From contig NZ_CP062231.1 in NCBI RefSeq assembly GCF_024707525.1, forward strand, positions 744,001 to 808,000: a stretch of 64,000 nt of DNA. The letters run 5' to 3'. Below the pieces are notes generated by a model. It saw only the letters and a program-made list of their open reading frames with translations. It was not told the origin of the DNA and made no database searches. Position 1 is the first letter of the stretch. Every line of letters starts with the position of its first letter. Made by a program: the position numbers and the translations under genes. Positions 20,113-24,119 of this stretch are shown here, piece after piece. Origin of the DNA: Rhizobium sp. TH2 (lineage in GTDB: Bacteria; Pseudomonadota; Alphaproteobacteria; Rhizobiales; Rhizobiaceae).

Positions 20113-20688
20113 TCAGCTGTTGCGGGCAAAGGTCTTGCTGGTCACGGCGAGCGAATGCGAATCGGGGCCGAAGTCGGCATCACCGGTAATCTTCAGCATT
20201 TCGGCGAGCCGTGTCCGCGCGCGGTTGACGCGGCTCTTGATCGTGCCGACCGCGCAGCCGCAGATGACCGCAGCTTCCTCGTAGGCAAAGCCTGACGCGC
20301 CGACCAGAATGATCGCTTCACGCTGGTCATCCGGTAGTTTTTCGAGCGCCGCCTTGAAGTCGTTCAGATCGAGGATGCCGTGCTGGCTCGGATTGTTGGA
20401 TAGCTGTTCGGTGAAGTAGCCGTCCGAATCCTGGATCTCGCGACCGCTTTTCCGGGCCTGGCTGTAGAATTCATTGCGCAGGATCGTGAAGAGCCACGCC
20501 TTCATGTTGGTGCCGTGTTCGAAGGATTCCTTCTTGGCCCAGGCCTTCATGATCGTGTCCTGCACGAGGTCGTCGGCATAGTCGTGGCGCTTGGAGAGCG
20601 AGACCGCAAATGCGCGGAGGCTGGGCAGGCATGCGAGCATGGATCGCTTGAAATCGCGCTCGATTGCGTCGGGCGAGACATCCGTCAT
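20113..20688 (-). CDS. ecfG: General stress ECF sigma factor (EcfG/RpoE2 type)
   Basis: A 191-residue sigma-70-family factor with only regions 2 and 4. Region 2 shows DYADDLVQDTIMKAW and the DNA-facing MKAWLFTILRNEFYSQARK; region 4 shows LPDDQREAIILVGASGFAYEEAA and the helix GTIKSRVNRARTRL. This is the EcfG pattern of alphaproteobacteria. It starts four bases inside the end of nepR, whose product would hold it inactive. The shared promoter at 20928-20952 fits the EcfG consensus exactly, so the operon is autoregulated. Confidence 0.94.
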   Translation of the reverse strand: MTDVSPDAIERDFKRSMLACLPSLRAFAVSLSKRHDYADDLVQDTIMKAWAKKESFEHGTNMKAWLFTILRNEFYSQARKSGREIQDSDGYFTEQLSNNPSQHGILDLNDFKAALEKLPDDQREAIILVGASGFAYEEAAVICGCAVGTIKSRVNRARTRLAEMLKITGDADFGPDSHSLAVTSKTFARNS

Positions 20689-20882
20689 TTGAACTCCTCG
20701 ACCGCATCGTTTCTTTTTGCCGCCCGCTCGGCCAGGTCAAGCTTTTCGAGAAGATCAAGGAAGCGGTCGGGTATGGCCTCTTCCTGGAGCGAATCGTAAT
20801 ATTCCCTCAAGCGCTTCGGGATTTCGGCATAGGCGCCGGATATATCCGCGGAGCGTTTGCCCCTGATATGGTTGTCTTTCAT
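20685..20882 (-). CDS. nepR: Anti-sigma factor NepR
   Basis: A 65-residue protein with the NepR core EAIPDRFLDLLEKLD and a polar N-terminal extension. In the known mechanism NepR binds EcfG until phosphorylated PhyR, whose N-terminal part mimics a sigma factor, takes NepR away. ATG 20882 is chosen over the preceding TTG 20885. The gene overlaps ecfG by four bases, and phyR lies 2.4 kb away with stress genes between them. Confidence 0.95.
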   Translation of the reverse strand: MKDNHIRGKRSADISGAYAEIPKRLREYYDSLQEEAIPDRFLDLLEKLDLAERAAKRNDAVEEFK

Positions 20883-20927
20883 CAACTTTTCTACTCACGT
20901 TGCAACGTTTTTACCGCTGACGCCAAA

Positions 20928-20952
20928 AACGTGCCAATGTGGCATATGTTCC
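20928..20952 (-). promoter_or_regulatory. EcfG-type promoter of nepR-ecfG
   Basis: On the minus strand GGAAC (20952-20948), a 16-base spacer, then CGTT (20931-20928): an exact match to the known EcfG consensus. The -10 box is 45 bases before the nepR start. Confidence 0.9.
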
Positions 20953-20996
20953 ATGGCCTTGAAAATAATTCTTCAGCTTCGTTTTCAGCCTTCGCC

Positions 20997-21021
20997 GGAA
21001 CAAAATGCCGCATCAATCGAT
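20997..21021 (+). promoter_or_regulatory. EcfG-like promoter of the DUF1328 gene
   Basis: GGAAC, 16 bases, then CGAT in place of CGTT, ending 31 bases before the DUF1328 start. One mismatch in the -10 box. Confidence 0.65.
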
Positions 21022-21052
21022 TATATGCACAGTCAACCGCAGGAGAAGACCG

Positions 21053-21217
21053 ATGCTCTACTATGCACTTCTATTTCTTGTTGTTGCGATCATCGCAGGC
21101 GTTCTGGGCTTCACTGGAATTGCAGGTGCCTCGGCGAGCATCGCACAAATTCTGTTCTTCGTCTTCCTCGCCCTAATGGTCGTTTCGCTGTTGATGCGGG
21201 CCGGCCGGCGCACCTAA
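21053..21217 (+). CDS. DUF1328 small membrane protein
   Basis: A 54-residue protein with two hydrophobic helices ([19 protein letters not shown] and [19 protein letters not shown]) joined by TGIAGASAS, the pattern of the DUF1328/YtjA family. ATG 21053 has an AGGAGAAG ribosome site; the longer reading from 21005 adds an unlikely hydrophilic stretch. The near-consensus EcfG promoter and its place between ecfG and phyR suggest a role in the general stress response. A strong terminator follows. Confidence 0.88.
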
Positions 21218-21242
21218 GATCAAGACTGTTACTCCAGAGATC

Positions 21243-21268
21243 AAACCCGCCGCATGCCGGCGGGTTTT
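21243..21268 (+). terminator. Terminator of the DUF1328 gene
   Basis: AAACCCGCCG and CGGCGGGTTT pair perfectly over 10 bases around CATGC and end in a T-run. Confidence 0.85.
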
Positions 21269-21295
21269 CCATGCGCGATTTTATTACGAAAAGGA

Positions 21296-21324
21296 CAAAT
21301 AAAAGCGGGGCCAAATGGCCCCGC
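21296..21324 (-). terminator. Terminator of the CsbD gene
   Basis: GCGGGGCCA (21305-21313) pairs with TGGCCCCGC (21316-21324). On the minus strand it is followed by TTTTATTTG, 24 bases past the CsbD stop. Confidence 0.8.
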
Positions 21325-21347
21325 CTCGCGGTATTTGAGAAAATTGA

Positions 21348-21545
21348 TCAGTGGCGGCTCAGCCAGGTATCGATGTCGCGCTCGGCGTCTTCCTGCGCGG
21401 TGCCGTAGCGCTCCTGGAGCTTGCCGGCGAGCTCCTTGCGATTGCCCTGGATGACGTCGATGTCGTCGCCGGTGAGCTTGCCCCAGTTCTTCTGGACCGA
21501 ACCCTTGAACTGCTCCCAATTGCCTTCTACCTGGTTCCAATTCAT
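21348..21545 (-). CDS. CsbD-family stress protein
   Basis: A 65-residue hydrophilic protein of the CsbD/YjbJ type: MNWNQVEGNWEQFKG at the start, then WGKLTGDDIDVIQG, and a helical GKLQERYG repeat. These proteins are abundant in stressed or stationary cells; the molecular role is unknown. An AAGGAA ribosome site lies before the start, and an exact EcfG promoter lies upstream at 21601-21625, so it belongs to the general stress regulon. Confidence 0.92.
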   Translation of the reverse strand: MNWNQVEGNWEQFKGSVQKNWGKLTGDDIDVIQGNRKELAGKLQERYGTAQEDAERDIDTWLSRH

Positions 21546-21600
21546 CTCGTGTTCCTTTCATGAGGTTGAAACAAAGAGCGGAATTTTCGCTCGGTTTGAC

Positions 21601-21625
21601 AACGGCGCCGCGCGTAAAGAGTTCC
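21601..21625 (-). promoter_or_regulatory. EcfG-type promoter of csbD
   Basis: On the minus strand GGAAC, exactly 16 bases, CGTT. The -10 box lies 55 bases before the csbD start codon. Confidence 0.9.
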
Positions 21626-21671
21626 CCAAAATCGCGACTCCAGGAAGTCTCAAATTTCTTTTGGAACCCCC

Positions 21672-21696
21672 GGAACTTTTGTCTGCGCAATCTGTT
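21672..21696 (+). promoter_or_regulatory. EcfG-like promoter before the candidate small RNA
   Basis: GGAAC, 16 bases, TGTT: one mismatch from CGTT. Transcription would start about 21703, exactly where the first hairpin begins. Another GGAAC at 21663 has no matching -10 box. Confidence 0.55.
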
Positions 21697-21702
21697 TTTG
21701 TA

Positions 21703-21825
21703 TCGCGAACCTGCTTCCCCTGACAGGTTCGCCCCTCCGGCGTCACCGCTCCCCGCCCGCAGGTGGCGCCCCCAGAAGGAGAGAAGCGTTATTCCGTCCC
21801 CCCGAAACGCTTCTCTCCTTCTTAC
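21703..21825 (+). ncRNA. Candidate stress-controlled small RNA with three C-rich hairpins
   Basis: Three stems follow one another with short links. Stem 1: GCGAACCTG (21705) with CAGGTTCGC (21724), loop CTTCCCCTGA. Stem 2: GGCGTCACC (21739) with GGTGGCGCC (21762), nine pairs including one G-U, loop with CCCC and CCC. Stem 3: 17 perfect pairs (21774-21790 with 21806-21822), loop ATTCCGTCCCCCCGA. All three loops are C-rich and could pair with purine-rich ribosome sites. An EcfG-like promoter ends seven bases before the first stem. Caulobacter has a general-stress-sigma-dependent RNA, GsrN, that uses a C-rich loop; this may be a functional analogue or relative. The 3' end lacks a clean T-run (CCTTCTTACTT). 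Confidence 0.65.
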
Positions 21826-21857
21826 TTCCAAGCAAACCCCGGCTGATTGTCTTCGAC

Positions 21858-21882
21858 GGAACAATGCGTCCGGCACCGCGTT
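21858..21882 (+). promoter_or_regulatory. EcfG-type promoter of the small-membrane-protein/DUF883 operon
   Basis: GGAAC, exactly 16 bases, CGTT. It ends 62 bases before the 25-residue gene and probably serves the whole run of genes to 23148. Confidence 0.88.
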
Positions 21883-21944
21883 ACTGCGACACCGCCGGCG
21901 GCTCTGCCGCAATGGAATTGAGAAGTCTGGAGTGACGATGAAGC

Positions 21945-22022
21945 ATGAAGCCGATTCTACTATGGCTGATAGGCATTCCCGTGCCGATCATATTTTTCCT
22001 CTACATCGTGGGCTGGCTCTGA
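21945..22022 (+). CDS. Very small membrane protein, 25 residues
   Basis: An ATG with GGAG about 12 bases upstream opens a frame coding for MKPILLWLIGIPVPIIFFLY and five more residues. It is one continuous hydrophobic helix with an IPVPI kink and a single Lys near the N terminus. It lies just below an exact EcfG promoter and 41 bases before the DUF883 gene. Short stress-linked membrane peptides of this style occur in proteobacterial genomes, but I cannot name a family. An alternative ATG at 21938 opens a different frame with no such pattern. Confidence 0.6.
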   Translation: MKPILLWLIGIPVPIIFFLYIVGWL

Positions 22023-22063
22023 TCGCCGCCCATGCGACCCACTAACCAATCAGGAGAACGATC

Positions 22064-22405
22064 ATGGCACTTTCGAAAGCCGCAAATGATGCAAAAGCCA
22101 GCGCCAACGAAACCTTGTCGCAACTCGAACTGGAACAGCGTCTCGACGACCTGAAGAGCGAGATCGCATCGATCACCAAGACGCTCTCGGCGCTTGGCGG
22201 GCAGAAGGTCGAGGACTATCGCGCCGGCATGGAACGGCTGGCAGCGGATGCGGTTTCCGCGTCGCTCAAGGCGTTCGACTCGGCCCGTTCGGAGGCCGTA
22301 TCGCTCGAGGAAACCTTCGAGGAGCATGTGCGCGCCCATCCGCTCCGGTCGGTCGGTATCGCGGCTGGCATCGGCTTCCTGTTCGCGCTCATGAGCCGCC
22401 GCTGA
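22064..22405 (+). CDS. DUF883 (YqjD/ElaB-like) membrane-anchored protein
   Basis: A 113-residue protein. Residues 1-85 are a long amphipathic, probably coiled-coil helix region (LSQLELEQRLDDLKSEIAS). It ends with AHPLRSVGIAAGIGFLFALM, the tail anchor of the DUF883 family. In E. coli the YqjD group is stationary-phase induced and tethers ribosomes to the inner membrane; whether this protein does so is unknown. AGGAGAA precedes the start. The next gene begins two bases after its stop, and the same DUF883-holin pairing exists in E. coli as yqjD-yqjE. Confidence 0.9.
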   Translation: MALSKAANDAKASANETLSQLELEQRLDDLKSEIASITKTLSALGGQKVEDYRAGMERLAADAVSASLKAFDSARSEAVSLEETFEEHVRAHPLRSVGIAAGIGFLFALMSRR

Positions 22406-22407
22406 TC

Positions 22408-22824
22408 ATGGCCGAACTCGTCGCCGCACTTACCGGACGCATACGGGCTTCAGGCCAGCAACTGGTCCTGACGCTGATCGCCTACGCGATCGTGGCGCTC
22501 CTGCTTCTGTCGGCCTATGTGGCGTTCATGTACGCGCTCGGGCTGGCAATTGCAGCGGAGTTCAGCCCGGTTATAGCCGCGCTCTCGATTGCGATTGCGA
22601 CGCTGGTCATAGCGCTCGCCATCGTGGTCTGGCTGAAGGTTCGCGGCCGCAGACTTGAGCGGCGCCGGGCGATCTATGCGAGAAGCGCCGTCAATGCCGG
22701 CTCGGCCGCCGCGATGGCGACCATGGTCCCCATGATGATCCGGGCAAGCCCGGTTGGGTCCCTCGTCGCGGTCGCCGTGCTGGCTTATGTCGTATCCCGC
22801 GCCGGACAGCGTGACCGGCGCTGA
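22408..22824 (+). CDS. Phage-holin-family (YqjE-like) membrane protein
   Basis: A 138-residue protein with two strong adjacent hydrophobic helices (about 18-43 and 48-75), a basic stretch (KVRGRRLERRR) and another hydrophobic region at about 95-130. This fits the putative Actinobacteriota holin X/YqjE family, which in proteobacteria sits beside DUF883 genes and is not a phage lysis protein. The spacing of two bases to the DUF883 gene indicates translation coupling. Confidence 0.8.
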   Translation: MAELVAALTGRIRASGQQLVLTLIAYAIVALLLLSAYVAFMYALGLAIAAEFSPVIAALSIAIATLVIALAIVVWLKVRGRRLERRRAIYARSAVNAGSAAAMATMVPMMIRASPVGSLVAVAVLAYVVSRAGQRDRR

Positions 22825-22899
22825 AGCAAGGCCCTTCCGCTCTCGGGCGGAAGTCTCTGAAGTTTTTGTAAAACCATCAAGAGGCTCAAGGAGGCCAAC

Positions 22900-23148
22900 A
22901 TGCTCGACAAGATCCAGAGCCCTGAAGTCAGGGAAATCATGAACGATCCGAATCTGACCCATCACGACAGAATCAAGAAGCTGATGAAGATTCGCGATGA
23001 CGCGCGCGCAGAACAGCGCATGGCGTCGGAAGGCCCGACCGTCGATGACGACGGCCTGAATTCGAAGCTGCGCGATGTCGAAATGCTGCTCGACAAGCTC
23101 GGCGAGACGCCGGCCGTCGAGGAAGGCAAGGGCGCCAACACGCTTTGA
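22900..23148 (+). CDS. Small hydrophilic protein of the stress operon, 82 residues
   Basis: Starts MLDKIQSPEVREIMNDPNLT after an AAGGAGG ribosome site. The composition is highly charged and mostly helical, with a second helix DDGLNSKLRDVEMLLDKLG, and has no Cys and no membrane segment. I do not recognise the family. It is probably co-transcribed with the DUF883 and holin-like genes from the EcfG promoter at 21858, since no closer promoter is seen. A perfect terminator follows. Confidence 0.75.
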   Translation: MLDKIQSPEVREIMNDPNLTHHDRIKKLMKIRDDARAEQRMASEGPTVDDDGLNSKLRDVEMLLDKLGETPAVEEGKGANTL

Positions 23149-23155
23149 TCCATTT

Positions 23156-23186
23156 GGCCCGCGGGAAATTGACCCGCGGGCCTTTT
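23156..23186 (+). terminator. Terminator of the DUF883 operon
   Basis: GGCCCGCGGG and CCCGCGGGCC pair over 10 bases around AAATTGA, followed by TTTT. Confidence 0.88.
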
Positions 23187-23237
23187 CATGTTCCCTGTCG
23201 AGGGAGCAAATAAAAGCCGGAAAAATTTGACGAAGCT

Positions 23238-23262
23238 GGAACCTTAATCGGGTCCGCTCGTT
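23238..23262 (+). promoter_or_regulatory. EcfG-type promoter of phyR
   Basis: GGAAC, exactly 16 bases, CGTT, ending 50 bases before the phyR start. PhyR is therefore under positive feedback. Confidence 0.92.
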
Positions 23263-23312
23263 AGTAAGCAGGTTAACTTTTACTGTACGTGTAAGCAGGG
23301 GAGAATTCATCA

Positions 23313-24119
23313 ATGTCATTGACCGCACGGGTCGCAGCCCATCTTCCGTTCCTGCGGCGCTATTCACGCGCCGTGACTGGATCGCAAACATCGGGCGACG
23401 CTTATGTCGTTGCGACGCTGGAAGCGCTCATCGCCGATATTTCCATCTTTCCCGCAGCTTCGTCGGATCGCGCAGCGCTTTACAAGCTCCTGGTGACGAT
23501 CCTCAAGTCATCGACGGTGGACGTGCCCGCTGTCTCCTCGCACTATGCCTGGGAGAAGAAGGCCATGGCCAATCTTTCGGCTGTGCCGACGATGGCGCGC
23601 CACGCCTTCCTGCTGGTCTCGGTGGAGGGCTTCACGCTCGCCGAAACGGCGGAGATTCTCTCGGTCACGCCAGAGGAAACCGCCGATCTGCTCGACGATG
23701 CCGCCAAGGAAATCTCGCGCCAGATCGCGACCGATATCCTGATCATCGAGGACGAGCCCCTGATCGCGCTCGATATCGAGCAGATCGTCAAGGATCTCGG
23801 CCATACCGTCACCGGGATCGCCCGCACCCACAAGGAGGCCGTCGAACTCTACAAGAAGACATCGCCGGGGATGATCCTCGCCGATATCCAGCTCGCCGAC
23901 GGCAGTTCGGGCATCGACGCGATCAACGATATCCTCAAGATCGCCAGCATCCCCGTCATCTTCATCACGGCATTCCCCGAACGGTTGCTGACAGGCGAAC
24001 GCGCGGAGCCGACATTCCTCGTGACCAAACCTTATAATCCGGACATGCTGAAAGCTCTGATCAGCCAGGCCCTGTTCTTCAATGAAAGCTCGACGGCAGG
24101 TGAAGCGCTCTCGGCATAG
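23313..24119 (+). CDS. phyR: Anti-anti-sigma response regulator PhyR
   Basis: A 268-residue protein with a sigma-factor-like N-terminal domain (about 1-140, including VTPEETADLLDDAAKEI in the sigma-4-like part) and a receiver domain (about 145-260). The acidic pocket is in LIIEDEPLIALD, the phospho-acceptor is Asp191 in ILADIQLAD, and the Lys is in LVTKPYN. Phosphorylation opens the sigma-like part so that it binds NepR and frees EcfG. The start has a GGGGAG ribosome site. An exact EcfG promoter lies upstream and an HWE kinase gene follows. Confidence 0.96.
   Translation: MSLTARVAAHLPFLRRYSRAVTGSQTSGDAYVVATLEALIADISIFPAASSDRAALYKLLVTILKSSTVDVPAVSSHYAWEKKAMANLSAVPTMARHAFLLVSVEGFTLAETAEILSVTPEETADLLDDAAKEISRQIATDILIIEDEPLIALDIEQIVKDLGHTVTGIARTHKEAVELYKKTSPGMILADIQLADGSSGIDAINDILKIASIPVIFITAFPERLLTGERAEPTFLVTKPYNPDMLKALISQALFFNESSTAGEALSA

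Follow-up and report, generated by a model that had tools for sequence, protein, structure and literature searches.

A putative EcfG-dependent small RNA with three C-rich hairpin loops at the general-stress locus of Rhizobium sp. TH2

The small RNA GsrN of Caulobacter acts with a C-rich 5' loop on the katG leader and raises KatG, and for R. etli, S. meliloti, Brucella (B. abortus) and others, GsrN-like RNAs have been predicted at the loci of the general stress response (PMC5869019). ReC64 of R. etli, which is encoded downstream of phyR-tcrY, has been assigned to EcfG1 by microarray, 5' RACE and a reporter fusion (PMC3892343), and a Northern blot also exists for this RNA (PMC2881028). Moreover, SmelC601 and other sRNAs of S. 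meliloti carry predicted RpoE2 promoters (PMC7143759). The element reported here had been likened to GsrN in a preliminary description, and the comparison is apt as to kind, since EcfG-dependent C-loop RNAs do occur at such loci (PMC5869019, PMC3892343). The predicted RNA shares with GsrN a general-stress sigma promoter, a length of about 100 nt, an exposed C-rich 5' loop and a terminal hairpin; however, the two are likened by description, and a single C-rich targeting loop is described for GsrN (PMC5869019), whereas three are predicted in our case. With ReC64 it shares the EcfG promoter, the location at a general-stress locus and the non-coding character (PMC3892343), but it is placed between nepR and phyR beside csbD instead of downstream of phyR-tcrY, and its predicted length of about 125 nt exceeds the 88 nt reported for ReC64. 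The likeness to SmelC601, taken from its table entry, consists in being a small RNA with a predicted RpoE2 promoter (PMC7143759). Repeated hairpins, anti-Shine-Dalgarno loops and a link to stress are further known from the RFM RNAs SmelA075/SmelA099 and from RS0680a, which differ from the RNA described here in being present in several copies per genome (PMC3927594), as opposed to a single copy behind an EcfG-type promoter.

The window, i.e., the whole stretch of 64,000 nucleotides that was analysed and to which all positions refer unless stated otherwise, comes from a genome of 6.4 Mb in 4 contigs, which sits in a genus of which 9 genomes were compared. The genes for the general stress sigma factor EcfG (20113–20688, minus strand; Pfam sigma-70 regions 2 and 4) and the anti-sigma factor NepR (20685–20885, minus strand; PF18557) are accompanied by csbD for a CsbD-like protein (21348–21545, minus strand; PF05532), a gene for a DUF883-family protein (22064–22405, plus strand; PF19029) and phyR, coding for the anti-sigma antagonist response regulator (23313–24119, plus strand; PF22029, PF22233 and PF00072); a DUF1328 gene is also present at this ecfG-nepR-phyR locus, as judged from a Pfam match. 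The candidate sRNA lies between nepR and phyR in the gap between csbD and the DUF883 operon, with csbD oriented divergently from both. Three EcfG-type boxes were found by motif scan within 282 bases, namely upstream of csbD (GGAAC-N16-CGTT, 21601–21625, minus strand), upstream of the sRNA (21672–21696, plus strand) and before the DUF883 operon (a perfect GGAAC-N16-CGTT, 21858–21882, plus strand). In the window as a whole, the pattern GGAAC-N16/17-NGTT occurs 9 times versus 2.1 times expected, a number reached by none of 100 shuffles. The stems had been said to fill the entire gap between csbD and DUF883, which does not hold because the gap also accommodates the csbD and DUF883 boxes. A small ORF starts at 21945.

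Within the genus, a cluster of DUF1328, csbD, the RNA and DUF883 with a varying gene set is found between nepR and phyR (20685–23313 in the window). Among the family loci outside the genus, phyR follows directly after nepR in 31 of 32, and the remaining one (L109) stops before phyR and carries a DUF1328 gene after nepR. A further hairpin (about CTGGAAACCGC-loop with CCCCTCAA-ACGGTTTCCAG) trails the DUF1328 gene in 6 of 46 loci (L013 at 6979, L014 at 7023, L127 at 6322, L130 at 6155, L132 at 6412 and L135 at 6250, in loci oriented with ecfG on the minus strand).

The promoter of the sRNA, read directly and recovered by the motif scan, is GGAAC-N16-TGTT, with one mismatch to GGAAC-N16/17-CGTT. 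Its presence had been noted before, together with a gap of seven bases to the first stem, which actually amounts to 8. The predicted transcript of about 125 nt (21703–21830, plus strand), with its 5' end deduced from the promoter and its 3' end from the last hairpin, folds into three consecutive hairpins on this strand. Hairpin 1 (21705–21732; loop CTTCCCCTGA) is closed by 9 pairs (21705–21713 with 21724–21732), and hairpin 2 (21739–21770; loop TCCCCGCCC) by 9 pairs (21739–21747 with 21762–21770), a one-base bulge and 2 further pairs next to the loop. Hairpin 3 (21774–21822; loop ATTCCGTCCCCCCGA), the probable terminator, contains 17 pairs (21774–21790 with 21806–21822) including a AAGGAGAGAA/TTCTCTCCTT core. 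Folding therefore confirmed the earlier count of 9, 9 and 17 pairs, apart from stem 2 being 9+2, and both folding and direct reading bore out that all three loops are C-rich, the respective C-runs being CCCC, CCCCGCCC and CCCCCC. The fold thus predicted exposes a C-rich loop close to the 5' end and finishes in a terminal hairpin. Its minimum free energy of -62.2 kcal/mol compares with a shuffled mean of -31.4 (sd 3.3), corresponding to a z-score of -9.46, and none of 200 shuffles was as low. Loops of this type are uncommon: among 510 hairpins of at least 9 pairs, counted on both strands of 10 general-stress loci that include the RNAs themselves, CCC occurs in the loops of 25 and CCCC in those of 3. 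Stem 3 is followed by a poor U-tract in the window (TTCTTACTTCC), and no terminator was called at stem 3 by a simple scan, which covers loops of 3–8 bases and would miss hairpin 3 anyway. Frame and stop counts across the region gave no decision on coding, but small indels between relatives speak against an encoded protein.

The ecfG locus is present in all 9 genomes of the genus, which include Rhizobium setariae KVB221 (G001), Rhizobium sp. SG_E_25_P2 (G003) and the metagenome-assembled genomes Rhizobium sp. LANL01E (G005) and Rhizobiaceae bacterium HKST-UBA62 (G008). An EcfG box followed by three C-loop hairpins upstream of DUF883 was found in 8 of these 9 genomes (the window and G002–G008), with 0 or 1 mismatch in the boxes of the seven other intact members. 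A fold z-score was obtained for each of the eight intact members except G002, which was folded without one; besides that of the window, the values are -7.44, -4.73, -4.94, -5.42, -7.61 and -6.33. The element of R. setariae is degenerate (fold z 0.17, box AGAAC by eye) and gives a weak match at the right place (E 1.8) with the seven-sequence covariance model described below. In the relatives compared, the C-runs stay in the loops while the flanking letters change. When the three closest sequences are aligned with plain MAFFT, both partners change in 6 of 37 pairs, a number reached by 7 of 500 shuffles and compared with 0 to 2 for slid structures. In an alignment of seven sequences to the model (A5), which favours the structure because it is fitted to it, 92.5% of the cells pair and 17 of 37 pairs change on both sides; none of 500 shuffles reached either the pair count or the covariation score, slid structures gave 0 to 5, and the number of further pair types was reached by 29 of 500 shuffles. 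The genus members compared are few and related. Compensatory changes and conserved C-rich loops in relatives had been set as a test of the proposal, and both were found (17 of 37 pairs and 8 of 9 genomes, respectively), so the identity of the element as an RNA is well supported.

Some further features were noted within the genus. The AAGGAGAGAA/TTCTCTCCTT core of stem 3 (21776–21785 and 21811–21820) is unchanged in 7 of 9 genomes while the other stems vary, and its 3' arm is anti-Shine-Dalgarno-like; the core may have a sequence-specific role. One locus of the HKST-UBA62 genome (L169) contains a stretch that looks like an RNA, is rich in CCTCCTCCC and has a strong terminator; we take it to resemble anti-Shine-Dalgarno hairpin RNAs. 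In the LANL01E genome (L056, L057), the ecfG match is split into three pieces, one with an internal stop, which is possibly an assembly error.

The combination of promoter and loops was also scored in 46 ecfG loci outside the window's own. Of 388 boxes of the type GGAAC-N16/17-CGTT, in which up to one mismatch was tolerated in the -10 part, 18 precede two or more hairpins with C-rich loops; of 1600 random 150-base pieces drawn from 20 of the loci, 7 satisfied this rule for hairpins. Seven of the 18 places represent the genus members' versions of the window-type element, nine are situated past phyR on the opposite strand (eight of them beyond the kinase too; L120 is the least typical), and two are located elsewhere (L015, L129). 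A covariance model built from three sequences (R1) matched 6 of 394 family genomes, all within the genus, and a single place in its own genome; in the seven R1-matched sequences of the genus (the window and six relatives) the box is found at -31 or -34 from the model start. A second model from seven sequences (R3), which begins downstream of the promoter, reached further and yielded 13 places outside the genus at E ≤ 0.02, at 12 of which an EcfG box with no more than one mismatch precedes the model start by 24 to 31 bases. Within the family, these are L117 of G029 (E 1.4e-5 when 51 loci were searched) as well as matches in G226 (E 2.9e-5), G283 (L195, E 6.7e-4) and G106 (E 0.012) in a search of 257 family genomes; the box lies at -31 with CATT in L117, at -28 in G226 and at -24 in G106, and no EcfG box was found upstream of L195. 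Five further R3 matches in the family outside the genus (E 0.045 to 0.36) lack an EcfG box. In another family of the order (f34), R3 matched 9 of 18 genomes at a threshold of E ≤ 0.05 (worst 0.002), all nine belonging to one genus; these three-hairpin RNAs (L181–L183, L188–L193) all have perfect GGAAC-N16-CGTT boxes, eight at the window's position of -31 and one at -26. Order-wide and class-wide searches with R3 returned 4 of 397 genomes (the window's own and three of f34) and 1 of 289 (the window's own), respectively; these are lower bounds, since weak matches are lost to the stricter filters applied whenever more than 40 genomes are searched. With boxes recurring in the relatives and at 12 of the 13 outside places, the assignment of the promoter to the general-stress (EcfG) type, as originally proposed, is well supported.

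These data also bear on whether the hairpins are chance or DNA-level palindromes, such as terminators or repeats, with no function as RNA. Stem 3 is indeed palindromic and gives a partial match on both strands, as would be expected in that case, but the single place of the R1 model in its own genome, the covariation of paired positions and the EcfG boxes at -24 to -31 of 12 of 13 outside-genus matches render such an origin very improbable. The window element very likely represents a real EcfG-type sRNA of about 125 nt, and comparison of the sequences indicates that it is conserved and probably functional.

A different alternative is a function as an attenuator-like 5' leader of the DUF883 operon instead of a free sRNA. 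In all nine loci of the genus, the RNA is encoded upstream of the DUF883 gene and on its strand, and the weak U-tract after stem 3 in the window would suit a leader. The DUF883 operon possesses its own perfect EcfG box downstream of hairpin 3 (21858–21882), however, suggesting that the sRNA is probably a separate unit, and a corresponding box with at most one mismatch was seen by eye in G002–G006 and G008, with none noted in G007. Moreover, the relatives in G226, G106 and G637 adjoin genes other than DUF883. In G029, G226 and G106 they are found about 4, 3 and 1.4 kb, respectively, beyond the kinase adjoining phyR, along the strand of phyR in the first two and against it in G106, while the RNA of G637 (f34) lies between hisG and a dienelactone-hydrolase-like gene (names by eye from translations), with no match to the window's stress-locus proteins in the 17 kb examined. 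In G106, an aldehyde-dehydrogenase-like ORF follows closely downstream on the strand of the RNA, which might conceivably serve as its leader; for DUF883 we regard such a role as unlikely, given the operon's own EcfG box and the location of relatives beside other genes elsewhere. In G468 (f34), weak EcfG and PhyR matches were observed about 4.5 kb off the RNA. In summary, structure, C-rich loops, promoter and independence from the DUF883 operon are supported by the comparison of sequences.

An RNA at the position of ReC64 beyond phyR is present in many members of the family, as seen in an alignment of ten (A4; L104, L106, L111, L112, L114, L116, L118, L121, L122 and L124), from which the model R2 was derived (further loci L137–L166); these RNAs are equated with ReC64 by their position. 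They resemble the window RNA in their C-rich loops and terminal hairpin, which has a CAGCCAGTG-like terminator stem, but their 5' part consists of a long stem enclosing a small hairpin, as opposed to the plain hairpin of the window RNA. Because the RNAalifold structure of A4 is partly spurious, R2 consists largely of a sequence profile together with hairpin 3. At E ≤ 0.01 it matched 101 of 394 genomes, 59 of them above 49 bits and the others at 35 bits or less, many with hairpin 3 only. Among the best 30 places, 24 had not been used in the model, although many of their genomes are probably related to those that were, and an EcfG box with no more than one mismatch is located at -27 to -29 in 23 of these 24. 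These boxes often read TGTT or CATT, which suggests that the TGTT of the window is an accepted promoter variant. R2 matched neither the window RNA nor the G029 locus, indicating two sequence-distinct types in a similar niche; the R2 matches listed include neither G106 nor G226. Conversely, R3 gave weak matches to two ReC64-position RNAs (L130, E 0.41; L114, E 0.72). Two R2 matches in the window's own genome look like ordinary terminators behind coding regions and were rejected as ReC64-type copies. C-loop RNAs of other sequence were seen at about the ReC64 position in L105, L108, L115, L125, L130 and L133. In a promoter scan of Caulobacterales, a candidate with C-rich loops was found in L031, and a stricter rule on a shorter stretch of six Caulobacterales loci left a sole candidate in L039.

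At the gathering threshold, Rfam 15 gave no matches in the window or in 10 loci, and six of the ten A4 loci were likewise searched with no match at this score. A search of 601 bases with E up to 10 yielded sub-threshold matches alone, of which 6C RNA (RF01066), an RNA of hairpins with C-rich loops, is nearest in kind. Membership in this family was rejected at 21.8 bits versus a gathering score of 47 (E 1.5). Literature searches among open-licence PubMed Central papers listed no description of the window RNA.

By analogy with GsrN, base pairing of the loops with G-rich sites in mRNAs appears the most likely mode of action. GsrN itself works via the katG leader and raises KatG, so a pairing with Shine-Dalgarno sites is one option among several. 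The window nepR carries TCAGGGG, complementary to CCCCTGA of loop 1, a site that is absent in the genus relatives. Around the nepR start (about -50 to +60; 20840–20950 in the window; nepR starts of L097–L100 and L103), 6 of 9 genus genomes have G-runs of at least 4, against a background of 866 of 5400 pieces of 110 bases taken at random from these loci; these G-runs represent a lead and not a result, because they occur at different places and in related genomes. Of six katG loci compared (L171, L173 and L174, whose flanks lie downstream of katG, left out), one has a G-run of at least 4, namely that of the window's genome, within the first codons. No pairing site was found in a conserved position at either katG or nepR, so pairing is proposed from the conserved loops and the parallel with GsrN. 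The failure to find such a site would also suit an RNA that binds and titrates a protein, be it Hfq or another C-rich-binding protein, instead of pairing with mRNAs, and the retention of the C-runs amid changing flanks fits a generic C-run binder as well as a G-run target. On the other hand, we know of no such C-rich-binding protein in this group. Furthermore, GsrN with its similar loop works by pairing (PMC5869019), and titration consequently seems an improbable main function. A stand-alone, trans-acting sRNA of the general stress response that pairs with mRNAs via its C-loops is the reading we consider likely.

We infer the following course of events, from transcription under stress and the transcript ends to the pairing mechanism, the targets and the help of Hfq. 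PhyR would free EcfG from NepR, and the freed EcfG would transcribe the sRNA under stress from the promoter at 21672–21696. The transcript would start near 21703, with the two C-loop hairpins forming at once, and end behind the third. The very stable stems would hold the C-runs open at their tips, from where they may nucleate base pairing with mRNA leaders or ribosome-binding sites that contain G-rich stretches. Stress mRNAs paired in this way would be altered in translation or stability, in the manner of GsrN with its single such loop, and Hfq may help in the process.

The window RNA is a sequence-distinct, three-loop form of the already known EcfG-dependent C-loop RNAs. A farther-reaching reading, which we put forward tentatively and hold to be somewhat doubtful, is that of an uncatalogued class of EcfG-dependent RNAs occurring in at least two families of the bacterial order, in which every hairpin, the terminator included, can show a C-run on fast-changing stems, resulting in a multivalent binder of G-tracts. 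If true, the fast turnover of the stems would defeat sequence searches while promoter spacing and loops persist, the gene would move around or leave the stress locus, and many mRNAs would be retuned at once during stress instead of a few dedicated targets, perhaps with nepR among them, as the G-runs in the start region in 6 of 9 genomes may hint. The RNA points to a family absent from Rfam 15, and the finding helps to explain why sequence searches miss such RNAs. The alphaproteobacterial stress response has so far been described mainly at the level of transcription, and the finding extends the under-studied RNA arm of this response.
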